This document shows, one piece after another, positions 22,146-58,512 of a DNA stretch of 64,000 nt. The notes below the pieces were generated by a model that searched no databases, was not told where the DNA came from, and worked only from the letters and a program-made list of their open reading frames with translations. Position 1 is the first letter of the stretch. Every line of letters begins with the position of its first letter. Source of the stretch: Gossypium raimondii (taxonomy: Eukaryota; Streptophyta; Magnoliopsida; Malvales; Malvaceae); contig NC_068577.1 in the NCBI RefSeq assembly GCF_025698545.1, forward strand, positions 2,451,501 to 2,515,500. The letters are read 5' to 3'. Both the position numbers and the translations under genes were made by a program.

Positions 22146-23206
22146 GGCCTAATTTGTTTTTTCCCTATTGACAGATGATTTTGGGTATCGGTTGAACATA
22201 ACCTATAGGATGCAAAGATGATGTATTGTTGTTTGGTTTGTTTACTTGACATTCTCTGCTTCATTCATTTCATCTTGATTTGTGATTTTCTGCATTGTTC
22301 CTATCCTCCTCATGAGTACATCATCATTTTTTTTTCCAATGTCTTCAATGAATCTACTCTTTCAACCAAAATAGAATTTAAGAACGAAGTTAGAAATTTA
22401 TTTTTGGGGCAAAAATTAAATTATAAAAAGATTAAACCGAAATTTTTCATCTTTGGGGGCCTTCCCCTTGGCGCCGTCCTTGTGAATTACCATTTAATTT
22501 ATTATTATTTTGATATAATGTTAGGGGTGAGGATAGAGGTAACAAGGTTCGAATCCAATGTCAAATGGATATTTGACAAGAGATTTAACTACCATTTCAT
22601 ATAAGTCAAAACATCATTTGATTTATTGTATATATATCAATTTCTTAACCAAAAAAAAAAATCTAGATTAAATTTAAGGGTTTGGTTGAGATTAAATGGG
22701 TAGGAATGATGTTGATTCCTAAAACCCACCCAAATCCAATCAAACTCCACCATTGAGATGGATTATGTGTTTTAATTTTTGTAGTTACAAAAAATCATAT
22801 TAACCATCATTTTACTTTATATATTTTTTATTTCTTAAAGTATTTATCGGAGCGAATCTTATAATTAGGGTAGATAGTAACATTTTGCCTTATCCTTTAT
22901 AATGAATCCAATAAACCAAATAGGATTTGCACTCAACCCCACCATACAAACCTTTGCATTTTATCATCACTGAATTATCAAGAAATTGTCAACGACATCT
23001 TAATTGTGTTGACACAAAATTCAATCATCTTGAATGATTAATGGCTAGTTTACTAACGAGGTTGAAAAATATAGTAAAAAAGAGTTTTTAAAAAATTTGA
23101 TAATATTTTTTATTATTGTTAAAAAGTTAACTTAAACACGAAAAAATTGATTTAACATTAATTAAATGTGAGGAAAAATAACAAACATCACAAATTCGAA
23201 AAAGCT
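22146..23206. other. Intergenic DNA with small repeat remnants
   Basis: At about 22385-22485 there is a piece of the 10705 TIR family (TTTGGGGGCCTTCCCC). At about 22530-22620 there is a tRNA-like AAGGTTCGAATCC patch that may be a SINE fragment. A chance frame at 22218-22604 crosses both and is not credible as a gene. Confidence 0.35.
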
Positions 23207-23216
23207 TAAAATTGTG

Positions 23217-24004
23217 CTTTTTTTATAAAAATAATATAAAAATTAATTAATTACGAAAATAGGTTGGGGATAAAATATTTACGAAAGTGAGCTGTTTGTT
23301 ATCGTATCCACTAGTGTCGCCCGACACATCGGTAACACCACTCCCCTTTTTCAATCAATCATCACCCAATCATTAGGCTTTTAAAAAATATTTTTTTTTG
23401 TTACCACTATATCAAGCGACATCCGTAGGTATTTTAAAAGATACCTATAAAAGTATAAGTATACACCGTTGGAGAAAAAAACAACAAAAAAAAAGTTATA
23501 TTTTTTATGGGTGCCACCGGACTGTCAGTCTATTGGCTGCTGAGAGCTCTCTTATTTTTGCTTTTAGGCTTTGAGAAGTTGTTTTACATTATGGATTTTA
23601 CTTATGGTCATTCCTCTTGCAGGTGAGGACTTTGACTAGAGAGTTACGAACTACTTCATTAAAATAATTAAGAAAAAACATGGAAAGGACATTAGCAAGG
23701 ATAACATGGCTCTTGGGATGCTTAGGAGGGAAGTTGAGCGTGTCAAGAGATTTCTTTTTCATTTTTTCTCCTACTATATACTCGTATTTTTATAAGTATT
23801 CTAAAAAAATACATAGGGTGTTGCCTGATACCATGACGATACTAAAAAATTATTCTTTTAAAAGTCTAATGATTACGTGATGTCGTCGATGTGTCAGGCG
23901 ACACCGATATTTACTATAACAAACGACCCATTCTTGTAATTAAATTTTCTTTAATCTTATTTTTATAATTAATTAATTTTTATATTATTTTTATTGAAGG
24001 GACC
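23217..24004. mobile_element. Pack-MULE-like element carrying a BiP/HSP70 exon
   Basis: TAAAATTGTG flanks both ends (23207-23216 and 24005-24014), a 9-10 bp target duplication as made by Mutator-like elements. Long imperfect inverted arms run inward from each end for over 200 bp, sharing TATAAAAATTAATTAATTA, GTTTGTTAT, the GTGTCGCCTGACACATCG block and AATCATTAGRCTTTTAAAA. The unpaired middle (about 23530-23750) is not repeat-like. It contains an intron end (CCTCTTGCAG) followed by a host chaperone exon, described separately. It encodes no transposase. The combination of long TIRs, target duplication and captured host sequence defines a Pack-MULE. Confidence 0.75.
23622..23749 (+). pseudogene. 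BiP: Captured BiP (ER HSP70) exon fragment
   Basis: The frame reads GEDFD, one stop, then [19 protein letters not shown] and [14 protein letters not shown]. This matches the BiP stretch usually written [41 protein letters not shown], in the ATPase domain of luminal-binding protein. The HGKDISKDN signature separates BiP from cytosolic HSP70s, which have HKKDISGN there. A splice acceptor directly before GEDFD shows that genomic DNA, not mRNA, was captured. Only about 42 codons are present, with a stop after the fifth, so no protein is expected. Confidence 0.85.
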
Positions 24005-24179
24005 TAAAATTGTGATTACCAATCAGATTGAATTTAGTGCAACAAAATCAGCTTAGCACTTGATTAGCATAATCGTGAGTGGCGTTAGTTAAAAAACGGT
24101 CCAGTTCCAGCTGTACAGTAAATGCATTCACGTTTTCTTATTGCCACAAATAAAATATTGCAAAAAAAACACAAAATTT

Positions 24180-24540
24180 TGACCGTTGATATGATTGGAA
24201 ATACGCGTCGATGCGCCGAATTTTAAGCCGTTTCACTATAGCCACGTGGCACGCCGGATTATGGAAATACGCTAGGGCCCCACGCGATTCTCGTAGGAGG
24301 CAGCGGCCACCTTTCACGCTTTTGGCTTTCTTTTTCTTTTTTTCGGTTTCCATAATTACCCTCTCTTGGTCTTCAGAATTTGTGAATACGCCATTCGAAG
24401 GTCCTCGTTTAGGGCAAATCAGTATATACGTAGAGTATTGAAGGGTAATTTAGGAATCACGTGACACGCGGCGCTTCACTGCCGTGGGCTGTGGGCGGTT
24501 TCAAAAGCAAAGGAAGGAAGCGTTCCGTGTTGAAAATCAG
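24180..24540. promoter_or_regulatory. GC-rich island with G-boxes, no gene attached
   Basis: Sharply less AT-rich than the flanks, with GCCACGTGGC at about 24241, TCACGTGACACGCGGCGC at about 24457, several ACGCG words and pyrimidine runs. CACGTG is the bZIP/bHLH G-box core. The island looks like a plant promoter, but no coding exon follows on either strand within several kilobases. It may be a relic promoter or a distal element of a neighbour, or it may serve a non-coding transcript. Confidence 0.3.
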
Positions 24541-28420: not shown

Positions 28421-28484
28421 TCTTTATTTTCAAACACCCTAAATTTACAACCACATATTCCAGAGAGGATTTTTTAAAAAAAAA

Positions 28485-30485
28485 ATGGTGATGAAGTTAC
28501 CTTATCTGGGTTCTTGTTTGTTTTTGGTTTTTTTTAGTCTGGTTTCTATTGTTGCTTCTGGGTCTGGAAAAGGGCTCCCAATTCTTTCATTCGATGAAGG
28601 ATATAATCAGTTGTTTGGGGATGATAATCTAGTTATCCATAGAGATGGTAAAGCTGTTCACTTGTCTTTGAACGAAAGAACAGGTATGTTTCTTTTTTGC
28701 TGATTTGGGTTCTTCTTTTTTTCTTTGTTGTTTCATTAAAAAGGAAACATTTTTTTGCTTTTGATGGTGGTGAAAAACAGGGTCGGGGTTTGTGTCACAA
28801 GACCTTTACTTGCATGGTTACTTCAGTGCTTCAATAAAGTTACCTGCTGATTACACTGCTGGAGTTGTGGTTGCTTTCTATGTGAGTTTATCTATGTTCT
28901 GCATTAATCTCTTTCCTTTTTTTTTATATTAAAATCTATTTATCTAACAGTTAATTATTTTAGAAGCTCTCTCAACAGTCCTTTTAAGCTCATGGTTGCT
29001 GTTTAGTGTTAATTAATCTGTTTTTTTTTAATTCTGATACTAATGAGACTCAGATGAGTTTGCCACTGTTTTCTTCACTTTCCTCTCATGGTTCAACTTG
29101 GAGTTTGAATAGGGTCTTGAATAAAGACTTTGGTTTTTCTTTTCAAGTCACAAAAATTTCAAATTTTATTCAAGAATCTGATCAAAATACACATGGATAT
29201 GACTATGAACATGTTCAACTTATCTCAGGTTAATTAGAATTTCCAGATGGTTTTTTCATGTTGAAGGAGATGGCTTCTTTCATAAATGAAATTCATTTTC
29301 CTGAATATGGATTTTAATTTATGTGATAAACAGATGTCAAATGGTGATATGTTCGAGAAGAACCATGATGAAATAGATTTTGAGTTCTTGGGTAACATTA
29401 GAGGAAAAAATTGGAGGATTCAGACCAATATTTATGGCAATGGAAGCACCAGTGCTGGCAGAGAAGAGAGATACAATCTCTGGTTTGATCCTGCTGATGA
29501 TTTCCATCACTACACTATTCTCTGGACTGCTTCTCACATCATGTAAGCATTCACAATCTATATCCCCAAATACTCGTGTTGGACATCCGACCCAATCACA
29601 AACATGGATATGGGAATATTACCCTTTAAGCATTGCCCCCACCATCTCTCCTATAATTTGTTGTTGTGTTGCTTTCCTTTTTCCTCAAATGGTTAAGTCC
29701 TTTAGTTATGCTGCTCTGCTCCAACCACAACTTTTTTAACCTATGAACATTGTATGATTAAGTGCTGAACATGCTGTTTTGAAGAGTTATGGTTTTGATG
29801 TGATGGTTGTATTGTGATGTAGGGTAAGTTTCTTATTTTGGGATGTTTATATATTACACGATATGAAGTCTGGTTTTGCTTGTAATGGCATCCCTTCTTA
29901 CCTCCATCCAGTTTTTCTTCTAATACCACCATAACTAAATTGTTGGTTTTGTTTTTGATGGTAATTATTTTTGCTTGCAGATTTTATGTAGACAATATCC
30001 CCATTAGAGAGTTCAAAAGAACAGCTGAAATGGGTGGAGATTTCCCCTCTAAGCCAATGTCATTGTATGCTACAATATGGGATGGATCTGATTGGGCTAC
30101 TAATGGTGGCAAATATAGAGTCAATTACAAATATGCTCCTTATGTAGCGGAATTCTCCGATTTAGTCTTGCACGGCTGCGCAGTTGATCCAATCGAGTTT
30201 TCATCCAAGAGGTGTGACGGCACGCAAAGTTGGGAACAACTCACAACCAGTATCACCCCATCACAAAGAAGCAAGATGGATAGCTTTAGGAGGAAGCACA
30301 TGACATACTCTTACTGCTATGACCAAACCAGATACAAGATTGCTCTTCCGGAGTGTGTGATCAATCCCCGAGAAGCTGAAAGACTGAAGAAGTTTGACCC
30401 TGTCACGTTTGGAGGAGGCAGGCGCCACCATGGGAAACGACACCACCACATGCGAGCAAGCCGGTCTGAGGCTGATTCCATCTGA
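28485..30485 (+). CDS. XTH28: Xyloglucan endotransglucosylase/hydrolase, group III
   Basis: Four exons, 28485-28683, 28781-28881, 29334-29542 and 29981-30485, give 337 residues with all introns GT-AG. A signal peptide (residues 1 to about 26) directs it to the wall. The GH16 catalytic motif [10 protein letters not shown] lies at 111-120, with Glu113 as nucleophile and Glu117 as acid/base. An N-glycosylation site NGS follows at 136-138, as in most XTHs. The C-terminal XET_C region with its Cys residues ([26 protein letters not shown]) is complete. The basic tail ([14 protein letters not shown]) is typical of the longer XTH27/28 type. Role: cutting and rejoining xyloglucan chains in the cell wall; some group III members are hydrolases. 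An open frame inside intron 2 (29006-29233) is not an exon. Confidence 0.95.
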
Positions 30486-50056: not shown

Positions 50057-51679
50057 TTAGTAGACGTAGCCCTTTACGAACATTCCTTTCTTGGCCTCTT
50101 CTGATTCTCCCTCGCCGGTGTATTTCCCGAGCTGAGCGAGTGAGTTGGCCTTGGCACGGACAAGGAGTGCATCCTGAGCAGCCTTAACGTTCTCAGGTCT
50201 GCCTCCCCATGTCTTCAAGCAAGTGTTCTGGAGAGCTCTGGCATACGAGAATGAGACGTGCCATGGGTTTGGAGATTGGTTCATTGCGTTCAAGTTGAGG
50301 GTTGCTTCAACCTCGGATTGTCCGCCAGACAAGAACTGCACAACAGAAACGGTTTGTCCAATCCGTTAGTACGGTTCATTTTATTATTTCACAATGCTTT
50401 AGTATAGAAAATGTACCATGATTCCAGGAACAGCTGGGGGGATTCTCCTGTGGAGGAGCTTGAGAGTGTAATCAGCAACTTGCTGTGGGGTGGCCTTGTC
50501 TTTGCATTCAGCACCAGGAGTGACCATGCTGGGCTTGAGAAGGATGCCCTCAAACATGACATTGTTCTCAGCAAGGTAGAAGAAAACCTCAGCCCAAACC
50601 TTCTGCGCTACTTCGAAAGTCCTATCAATTCCATGGTCACCATCAAGCAAGATTTCCGGCTCCACAATCGGGACCAGTCCACTGTCCTGCAACACAATGG
50701 CCACAAAAATCACTTCTCGACAACAAGTAGCATACACATAATGATTACTCCACAGCTTCATCTATCAACTTACTTGAGAAATGGCGGCATAGCGAGCAAG
50801 TCCCCAAGCTGCTTCTTTCACTGCCAAGGCAGATGGACCATTTGGAATGCTCACAACGGTACGCCTGTCCGATCAAAAAGAGCTAATAGTGTTATACAAG
50901 AATCCTTTATTTCAACACTGCATAATATGGTTGAGAAGTCATCGAACATGGGGTTACCATTTGGCGAAACGAGCACCCTGCTGGTAGTAGGCAGCTGTGC
51001 GGGATGAAAGACCGTCAAGACCTTGGCACCATGACTCGTTGTTGGAACCAGGGAGTGGAACCAAACCCTGTTATTTTGTTTACCAAATCATTCAGTTCCA
51101 AGTATCCTCTTTAAAGATATGAATTTGTGGGTGCTTTTTGGTTAAGCTTTATACCTTGTCAACTTTGATACCAGGGACAATCTTTTGCTCAACAAGAACA
51201 TCGACCATCTTTTTCCCATCGATGGTAGATTGGTAGAGAGTCTCCTCGAAAAGGATAGCTCCCGAGATGTAGTCACCGAGGCCAGGGGCAGACACGAGAA
51301 GTGTACGGTAAGCTTGCCGGTTTGCCTCGGTATTCTCGAGACCAATCGAGGCAAGCCGTTTCCCACATGTAGCATTTGATTCATCCATGGCCAAAATACC
51401 ACGACCTGGAGATGCAACAGTTTTCTACATCCAAACAAAGAAATAATATTTGAGCATGCACGAGATAAAAATACGATTCAAGACTACATTAATTCTAAGA
51501 CATACCGCGGTCTTAACAAGCTCGTCGGCATATGAACTAGCACGGACGGTAAAGGCGACCGATGTAGGGTGTGACCGTACAAAACAAACCGAAGGGTGGC
51601 GGAGGTTTTGGCCCTTAATCCACTCGGACTTGTCGATAATAGGTGAAGACTTGAGGAGAGTAGCGGAAGCAGAAGCCAT
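50057..51679 (-). CDS. FBA: Chloroplast fructose-bisphosphate aldolase (copy 1)
   Basis: Six exons in gene order 51679-51506, 51424-51155, 51067-50958, 50864-50774, 50686-50417 and 50335-50057, all GT-AG, give 397 residues. Residues 1 to about 45 are a Ser/Ala-rich plastid transit peptide. Class I aldolase signatures follow: [28 protein letters not shown], and the Schiff-base Lys266 in GILLKPSMV. The C-terminus ends in GYVY with the essential terminal Tyr. Reaction: condensation of dihydroxyacetone phosphate with glyceraldehyde 3-phosphate (and erythrose 4-phosphate) in the Calvin cycle. Length equals the usual plastid FBA1/FBA2 size. It converges with the BBX gene about 2.3 kb away. Confidence 0.96.
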
Positions 51680-56884: not shown

Positions 56885-58512
56885 TTAATAGACATATCCC
56901 TTTACGAACATTCCTTTCTTGGCCTCCTCTGATTCTCCCTCGCCGGTGTATTTGCCGAGCTGAGCAAGTGAGTTGGCCTTGGCACGGACAAGAAGTGAAT
57001 CCTGAGCAGCCTTAACGTTCTCAGGTCTGCCTCCCCATGTCTTCAAGCAAGTGTTCTGGAGAGCTCTGGCATACGAGAACGAGACGTGCCATGGGTTTGG
57101 AGATTGGTTCATTGCGTTCAAGTTGAGGGTTGCTTCAACCTCGGACTGTCCGCCAGACAAGAACTGCACAACAGAAACGGTTTGTCCAATCCGTTAGTAC
57201 CGTTCATTTTATTATTTTACAATGCTTTCGTATAGAAAATGTACCATGATTCCAGGGACAGCTGGGGGGATTCTCCTGTGGAGGAGCTTGAGGGTGTAAT
57301 CAGCAACTTGCTGTGGGGTGGCCTTGTCTTTGCATTCAGCACCAGGAGTGACCATGCTGGGCTTGAGAAGGATGCCCTCAAACATGACATTGTTCTCAGC
57401 AAGGTAGAAGAAAACCTCAGCCCAAACCTTCTGCGCTACTTCGAAAGTCCTATCAATTCCATGGTCACCATCAAGCAAGATTTCCGGCTCCACAATCGGG
57501 ACCAGTCCACTGTCCTGCAACACAATGGCCACAAAAATCCCTTCTCAACAACTAGTAGCATACACATAATGATTACTCATCAGCTTCCTTTCTCAACTTA
57601 CTTGAGAAATGGCGGCATAGCGAGCAAGTCCCCAAGCTGCTTCTTTAACTGCCAAGGCAGATGGACCATTTGGAATGCTCACAACAGTACGCCTGTCCAA
57701 TCAAAAATAGATAATAGTGTTATACAAGAATCCTTTACTTCAACACTACATAATATGGTTGAGAAGTCATCGAACATGAGATTACCATTTGGCGAAACGA
57801 GCACCCTGCTGGTAGTAGGCAGCTGTGCGGGATGAAAGACCGTCAAGACCTTGGCACCATGACTCGTTGTTGGAACCAGGGAGTGGAACCAAACCCTGTT
57901 ATTTTGTTTACCAAATCATTCAGTTCCAAGTATCCTCTTTAAAAATATGAATTTGTGGATGCTTTTTGGTTAAGCTTTATACCTTGTCAACTTTGATACC
58001 AGGGACAATCTTTTGCTCAACAAGAACATCAACCATCTTTTTCCCATCGATGGTAGATTGGTAGAGAGTCTCCTCGAAAAGGATAGCTCCCGAGATGTAG
58101 TCACCGAGGCCAGGGGCAGACACGAGAAGGGTACGGTAAGCTTGCCGGTTTGCCTCTGTATTCTCGAGACCAATCGAGGCAAGCCGTTTCCCACATGTAG
58201 CATTTGATTCATCCATGGCCAAAATACCACGACCTGGAGATGCAACAGTTTTCTACATCCAAACAAAGAAATAATATTTGAGCATGCATGAGATAAAAAT
58301 ACGATACAAGACTACATTAATTCTATTTAAGTACATACCGCGGTCTTAACTAGCTCATCGGCATATGAACTAGCACGGACGGTAAAGGCGGCCGATGTAG
58401 GGTTGCACTGTACAAAACAAACCGAAGGGTGGCGGAGGTTTTGACCCTTAATCCACTCGGACTTGTCAATAATAGGTGAAGACTTGAGGAGAGTAGCGGA
58501 AGCAGAAGCCAT
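56885..58512 (-). CDS. FBA: Chloroplast fructose-bisphosphate aldolase (copy 2)
   Basis: Six exons in gene order 58512-58339, 58252-57983, 57895-57786, 57692-57602, 57514-57245 and 57163-56885 give 397 residues, the same lengths and phases as copy 1. By eye only about five residues differ: four in the transit peptide region ([10 protein letters not shown] for [10 protein letters not shown]) and one Ala to Ser near the C-terminus (QDSLLV). Lys266 of the Schiff base, the ILAMDES motif and the terminal Tyr are all kept. The introns are also very similar, while flanking spacers are more diverged. The promoter with its TATA box at 58664-58670 is included in the duplication, so the copy is probably expressed. 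Confidence 0.96.

Follow-up and report, generated by a model that had tools for sequence, protein, structure and literature searches.

Pack-TYPE transposons, known from rice and maize, are defined in the available text of PMC8903248 as non-autonomous elements with terminal inverted repeats (TIRs) that hold captured coding DNA. In tomato, the PM-ZIBP family of Pack-MULEs comprises 14 copies, mostly with tandem arms, and the accessible sections of the same paper treat the integration of acquired sequence into extended TIRs as known and describe the mechanism of Pack-MULE acquisition, as of 2012, as "yet to be understood" (Ferguson and Jiang 2012, PMC3310237). For the Pack-TIRs of animals, capture is attributed in the portion of PMC8277862 at hand to template switching at microhomology, and the multicopy ones are said to have spread by transposition. 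Among the titles and opening abstract lines of the open literature searched, no report of a BiP-carrying MULE in cotton was found.

Here we describe a cotton element that is very probably a non-autonomous Pack-MULE. As judged from its DNA sequence, about 200 bp of genomic DNA from a C11-type gene for BiP, a chaperone of the endoplasmic reticulum (ER), would have been copied into it in a single capture, and the element would then have transposed and later decayed. It lies within a stretch of 64,000 nucleotides (hereafter the window), which corresponds to C13:2451501-2515500 of a 750.8-Mb assembly. Because the donor gene, the breakpoints and the arm-cargo borders are readable in a family of four copies, the way in which Pack-MULEs capture genes can be tested on an actual example.

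Structure, copies and surroundings of the element

The element is 788-789 bp long and spans positions 23216/7-24004 of the window (features in Table 1). It is flanked on both sides by TAAAATTGTG, exact over 10 bp; among 20,000 random pairs of 18-nt stretches from the same window, a 10-mer was common to 0.065% and a 9-mer to 0.125%. Local alignment of the two arms (267 bp on the left, 244 bp on the right) gave a score of 201; 500 shuffles that preserved dinucleotide composition scored 32.5 on average and never more than 67. The first-pass annotation had described flanking repeats of 9-10 bp, inverted arms of more than 200 bp and, in the middle, an intron end followed by about 42 codons of BiP, and each of these descriptions is upheld by the values given here and by the pieces in Table 1.

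Table 1. Coordinates of the element's features and of its BiP-bearing relatives (window positions unless a chromosome is named)
Feature	Position	Strand	Remarks
Left target-site duplication (TSD), TAAAATTGT(G)	23207..23216	.	Matches 24005-24014 exactly over 10 bp, or over 9 bp when the terminal G is assigned to the element
Left terminal inverted repeat	23216..23528	+	Arm-arm alignment; family matches
Inverted (antisense) copy of BiP exon end	23534..23553	-	Inner edge of left arm; identical to the antisense strand of three of the four BiP genes compared
Captured 3' part of BiP intron with splice acceptor	23554..23622	+	60/67 identical to g11a
Captured BiP exon piece, about 42 codons	23623..23750	+	113/128 identical to g11a and g11b; protein match
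Right terminal inverted repeat	23751..24004	-	Arm-arm alignment
Right target-site duplication	24005..24014	.	Exact repeat of left copy
C10 BiP element	C10:6874300-6875286		Locus L031
C12 BiP element	C12:1116933-1118152		Locus L032
C7 BiP element	C7 about 26636495-26637105

The arms are about 245-270 bp long and, since they are only about 69% identical, the element is evidently old. Similarity of the left arm to several BiP-free family members extends to 23527/23528; the right arm, compared with those of the C10 and C12 elements, is without its innermost part, where the BiP exon end would stand in sense orientation. By eye, near-palindromic motifs of type GTGTCGCCTGACAC can be recognised in the arms at 23314-23335 and 23895-23912, and motifs of this type recur in some BiP-free members (L014, L026 and L027). 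No stop-to-stop frame longer than 70 aa exists inside the element, as befits a non-autonomous one. Several attributes by which Pack-MULEs are recognised are found together at this locus: a TSD, long inverted arms, a fragment of a host gene along with its parental gene, no transposase, and mobility as a unit.

A search of the whole assembly with the middle of the element returned nine candidates, all nine of which were scored; very common words were skipped, and this number is thus a count of the copies found, with others possible. The candidates resolve into four BiP-bearing elements (this one and those on C10, C12 and C7) and five BiP genes, which supply the parental genes (two on C11 and one each on C2, C8 and C13). 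The four elements lie on four chromosomes and hold the same captured piece between related arms, as a unit that moves would. Exact TSDs of 9-11 bp are present at two of the four, each with its own, that of the C10 copy being TAATATAAT(GC); at the C12 copy no TSD was found, and the C7 copy is truncated on the left. All four elements share the left border of the BiP piece, and the C10, C12 and C7 elements also share the right border, which is missing in this one. A single capture followed by transposition explains the piece and the borders that the copies share. The other copies have been altered by deletions (small ones in the C12 and C7 elements), by a tandem duplication or by loss of the acceptor. 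The C10 element carries part of its BiP exon piece as a tandem duplicate (L031, about 2152-2340), and in the C12 element an insertion of more than 200 bp breaks the left arm (L032, about 2045-2283).

Outside the element, the left flank has 10 weak genome matches besides itself, none longer than 93 bp. The right flank has one, C3:42617066-42617281 (L070), at 72%, where the similarity begins 30 bp to the right of the TSD; no match to the arms or to BiP was found in the 1.8 kb around it. We considered this C3 stretch as an empty site, but it is not a clean one because the left flank does not align there. The corresponding part of the window is the 240 bp at 24044-24283, on the right side of the element; it shares 72% identity with the C3 stretch, and the pair may go back to an ancient duplication in which a promoter or 5' region has been conserved. 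Elsewhere in the window, two nearly identical 198-aa open frames at 50411-51007 and 57239-57835 are probably a tandem gene duplication. The frame opposite 50411-51007 is presumably that of a class I aldolase, and the frames at 28443-30485 we take, from their motifs, to be exons of a xyloglucan endotransglucosylase/hydrolase gene.

Donor gene and arm family

The captured piece consists of 69 bp of intron, with the acceptor CAG kept, and an adjoining 128 bp of exon in which one in-frame TAG (23637-23639) follows five residues. For comparison we used the BiP genes g11a (C11:61709072), g11b (C11:61690978), g2 (on C2) and g8 (on C8); identities and tree refer to these four, the fifth gene, g13 on C13, being left out. 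Over the intron part, g11a (Table 1) is followed by g11b with 58/67, g2 with 49/66 and g8 with 44/66 identical positions, and the C11 pair is the best match for the intron and exon parts alike. Because identity to the C11 genes crosses the intron-exon border, the piece appears to have been captured from genomic DNA. In a tree of the BiP segments, the four genes stand apart from the elements with a bootstrap of 92% (200 replicates), and the elements branch close to where g11 and g2/g8 part, a position that does not single out one donor. Together, these comparisons support as donor a C11-type BiP gene or its ancestor, taken up as genomic DNA.

After capture, the piece seems to have decayed with no sign of coding constraint, since its exon and intron parts decay alike and its codon positions change evenly. 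Between elements, identity is 0.79-0.86 for the exon part, which does not exceed the 0.82-0.92 of the intron part. Differences from g11a, summed over the four elements, number 17, 23 and 23 per codon position, as against 4, 2 and 16 in the genes g11b, g2 and g8.

The arms belong to a larger family. The left arm alone has at least 41 matches in the genome, the BiP elements included (40 of 136 candidates scored). One BiP-free member of 3.0 kb, at C2:36426810-36429830, has matching arms at both ends and encloses an 83-aa piece, which in turn has at least 150 matches, itself included (150 of 1005 candidates scored). The peptide has no Pfam family match. In at least seven places, its relatives lie 0.61-0.66 kb upstream of matches to PF10551 (MULE) on the same strand, and the C2 piece is probably a relic of the N-terminal end of a MURA-type (mudrA-type) transposase.

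No intact autonomous partner was found between the related arms examined. An arm pair on C3 (35204321/35215281) was set aside as a candidate, as its middle 7.45 kb holds hAT pieces (a BED finger and a hAT dimerisation region), and so was a pair on C13 (14153101/14165501), in which the 5 kb read holds a reverse-transcriptase piece. The stop-to-stop frames listed for the C3 and C13 pairs (at least 90 and at least 80 aa; three pieces scanned against Pfam) contain no MULE transposase, and none of the PF10551 matches listed (150 of 2055 candidates scored) falls inside the C3, C13 or C5 arm pair. No exact TSD of at least 9 bp was found for the BiP-free pairs of arms on C2 and C3, and in L017, L024 and L029 the pairs examined gave no clear TSD, AT-rich chance repeats apart. 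For L014, L017, L024, L028 and L029 only short open frames were listed, and no other host gene was recognised in them.

The first-pass annotation had named the element a Pack-MULE, and this name is borne out by the TSDs of 9-11 bp at two of the four copies, the long arms of a larger family, the presence of parental genes and a relative with a probable MURA relic. Its further proposal of capture from genomic DNA agrees with the identity to g11a over both intron and exon. In addition, two of the checks that it had suggested came out in its favour: copies of the arms occur both with and without the BiP piece, and identity to the genomic BiP gene spans the intron-exon border.

An inverted exon end at the edge of the left arm

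One feature had escaped the first-pass annotation. At its inner edge, the left arm carries the end of the BiP exon as an inverted 20-mer, a perfect complement to g11a, g11b and g2 and not to g8; the rest of the BiP piece sits in the loop between the arms. The inverted 20-mer is present in all four BiP elements, with 0 mismatches in this copy, 5 in C10, 4 in C12 and 3 in C7. Its forward counterpart at the right border is kept in C10, C12 and C7 (1, 2 and 3 mismatches, respectively). In BiP-free family loci, at up to five mismatches, the inverted 20-mer was found in 0 of 21 (21 of 30 loci fetched). The occurrence of the inverted exon end at this edge in all four copies indicates that the arms extend into the captured gene.

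In C10, C12 and C7, the alignment of arm against arm continues via a short spacer into the BiP piece, with a ragged tail beyond the BiP 20-mer in C10. The best alignments of BiP-free members (L014, L019, L026 and L027), whose scores of 80-103 lie above the maximum of 66 reached in 240 shuffles, end 0-17 bp before the place of the inverted BiP piece. Weaker BiP-free alignments do pass it (L011 with a score of 73, L029 with 52, L024 with 51 and L020 with 46); among these, L011 alone lies above the shuffle scores, and it is ragged there. Over the seven 20-nt copies, 18 of 140 positions (12.9%) differ from the gene, and because the exon bodies differ from g11a to a like degree (9-16%), the extension of the arms would date from about the same time as the capture. 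At the left border, by eye, the junction between the inverted exon end (CTCTCTT) and the intron falls on TCTT, which occurs in the g11b intron (ATTCTTAG) and is missing from the g11a intron (ATTTTTAG).

Other origins for the locus have to be weighed against these observations. The stop codon in the BiP piece, and its decay without coding constraint, would also suit a processed or segmental BiP pseudogene that came to lie between the arms by chance or was surrounded by inserted arms. The intron end that is kept, however, means that the source was not a spliced mRNA, and the same piece recurs between related arms on four chromosomes, with inverted BiP sequence within the arms and different TSDs at two copies, all of which leaves a pseudogene highly improbable. 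We give even less credence to the idea that a chimeric transcript uses the captured exon for coding or splicing: this copy has kept its acceptor CAG, but the frame meets TAG after five residues, change is even over the codon positions, and deletions, a tandem duplication or the loss of the acceptor affect the other copies. That the arms come from another group of long-armed DNA transposons, and not from Mutator, might be argued from the fact that no complete transposase was found between such arms, yet this is very unlikely in light of the 9-11 bp TSDs at two copies and the C2 relative with its probable MURA relic.

A different kind of alternative would make the element a source of small RNAs, with an arm transcript that would fold back and yield small RNAs directed against BiP genes. 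The folding energy of the strand as RNA is -248 kcal/mol, far better than that of its shuffles (z -15.4, 20 shuffles), and the 20-mer offers a perfect antisense match to three BiP genes. This folding is achieved mainly by the arms, however, and most of the BiP sequence lies outside them. The longest exact sense matches to the four BiP genes compared are 14 nt in the exon, 15 nt across the intron border and 17 nt in the intron; moreover, the sense partner of the 20-mer is missing in this copy, and positions 23000-24300 contain no Rfam match at the gathering score. Such a source is therefore very unlikely, and small-RNA targeting of BiP, possible in principle, finds little support in the sequence. 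For the BiP gene itself, no effect is evident from the present sequence evidence.

We thus return to a Pack-MULE formed by one capture, whose later transposition would have been driven by the MURA-type transposase of an autonomous relative. How the arms came to reach into the cargo can be pictured as follows. Repair synthesis would have joined the right arm to the BiP exon, and the left arm would have been rebuilt as a copy of the right one; this copying may have overshot the junction by about 20 bp into BiP sequence, and the synthesis would then have changed template where a short stretch matched the intron end, leaving the arms extended into BiP. We are tempted to regard the inverted 20-bp BiP end, tentatively, as a possible fossil of the capture, left when one arm was copied from the other by folding back and the template was switched within the gene at a 4-bp match. 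Against this scenario counts the fact that the TCTT match at the proposed switch point is that of the g11b intron and not of g11a. In addition, an identical scar would result if the arms had undergone gene conversion shortly after the capture, and the order of events in the template-switch scenario stays a proposal. For the extension of TIRs as such, it is reportedly Hanada 2009 that is cited. If the capture scenario is true, and if arm-cargo borders often carry this kind of scar, the scar would tell how Pack-MULEs acquire genes. In this old BiP-carrying Pack-MULE family, it is the extension of the arms into the cargo that deserves to be followed.

Comparison with described Pack elements

With PM-ZIBP, as presented in the accessible sections of PMC3310237, the BiP element has in common that it is non-autonomous, with long arms, a TSD of 9-11 bp, a captured gene fragment, several copies and a parental gene in the genome. 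It differs in that four copies were found here, as opposed to 14 with mostly tandem arms, and in that its arms extend by about 20 bp into captured exon sequence. The arm identity of about 69% is also lower than the 80% given for the tomato TIR library in that part of the paper. Measured against the available text of PMC8903248, the BiP element fits the definition of Pack-TYPE transposons; rice Pack-MULEs tend to be young according to the same text, whereas the BiP element is strongly decayed. Finally, as for the Pack-TIRs in the portion of PMC8277862 at hand, a template switch at microhomology is invoked here, and several copies would have arisen by transposition. Pack-TIRs are TIR elements of animals, whereas the element described here is from a plant, and it is in this plant element that we note an inverted captured end.
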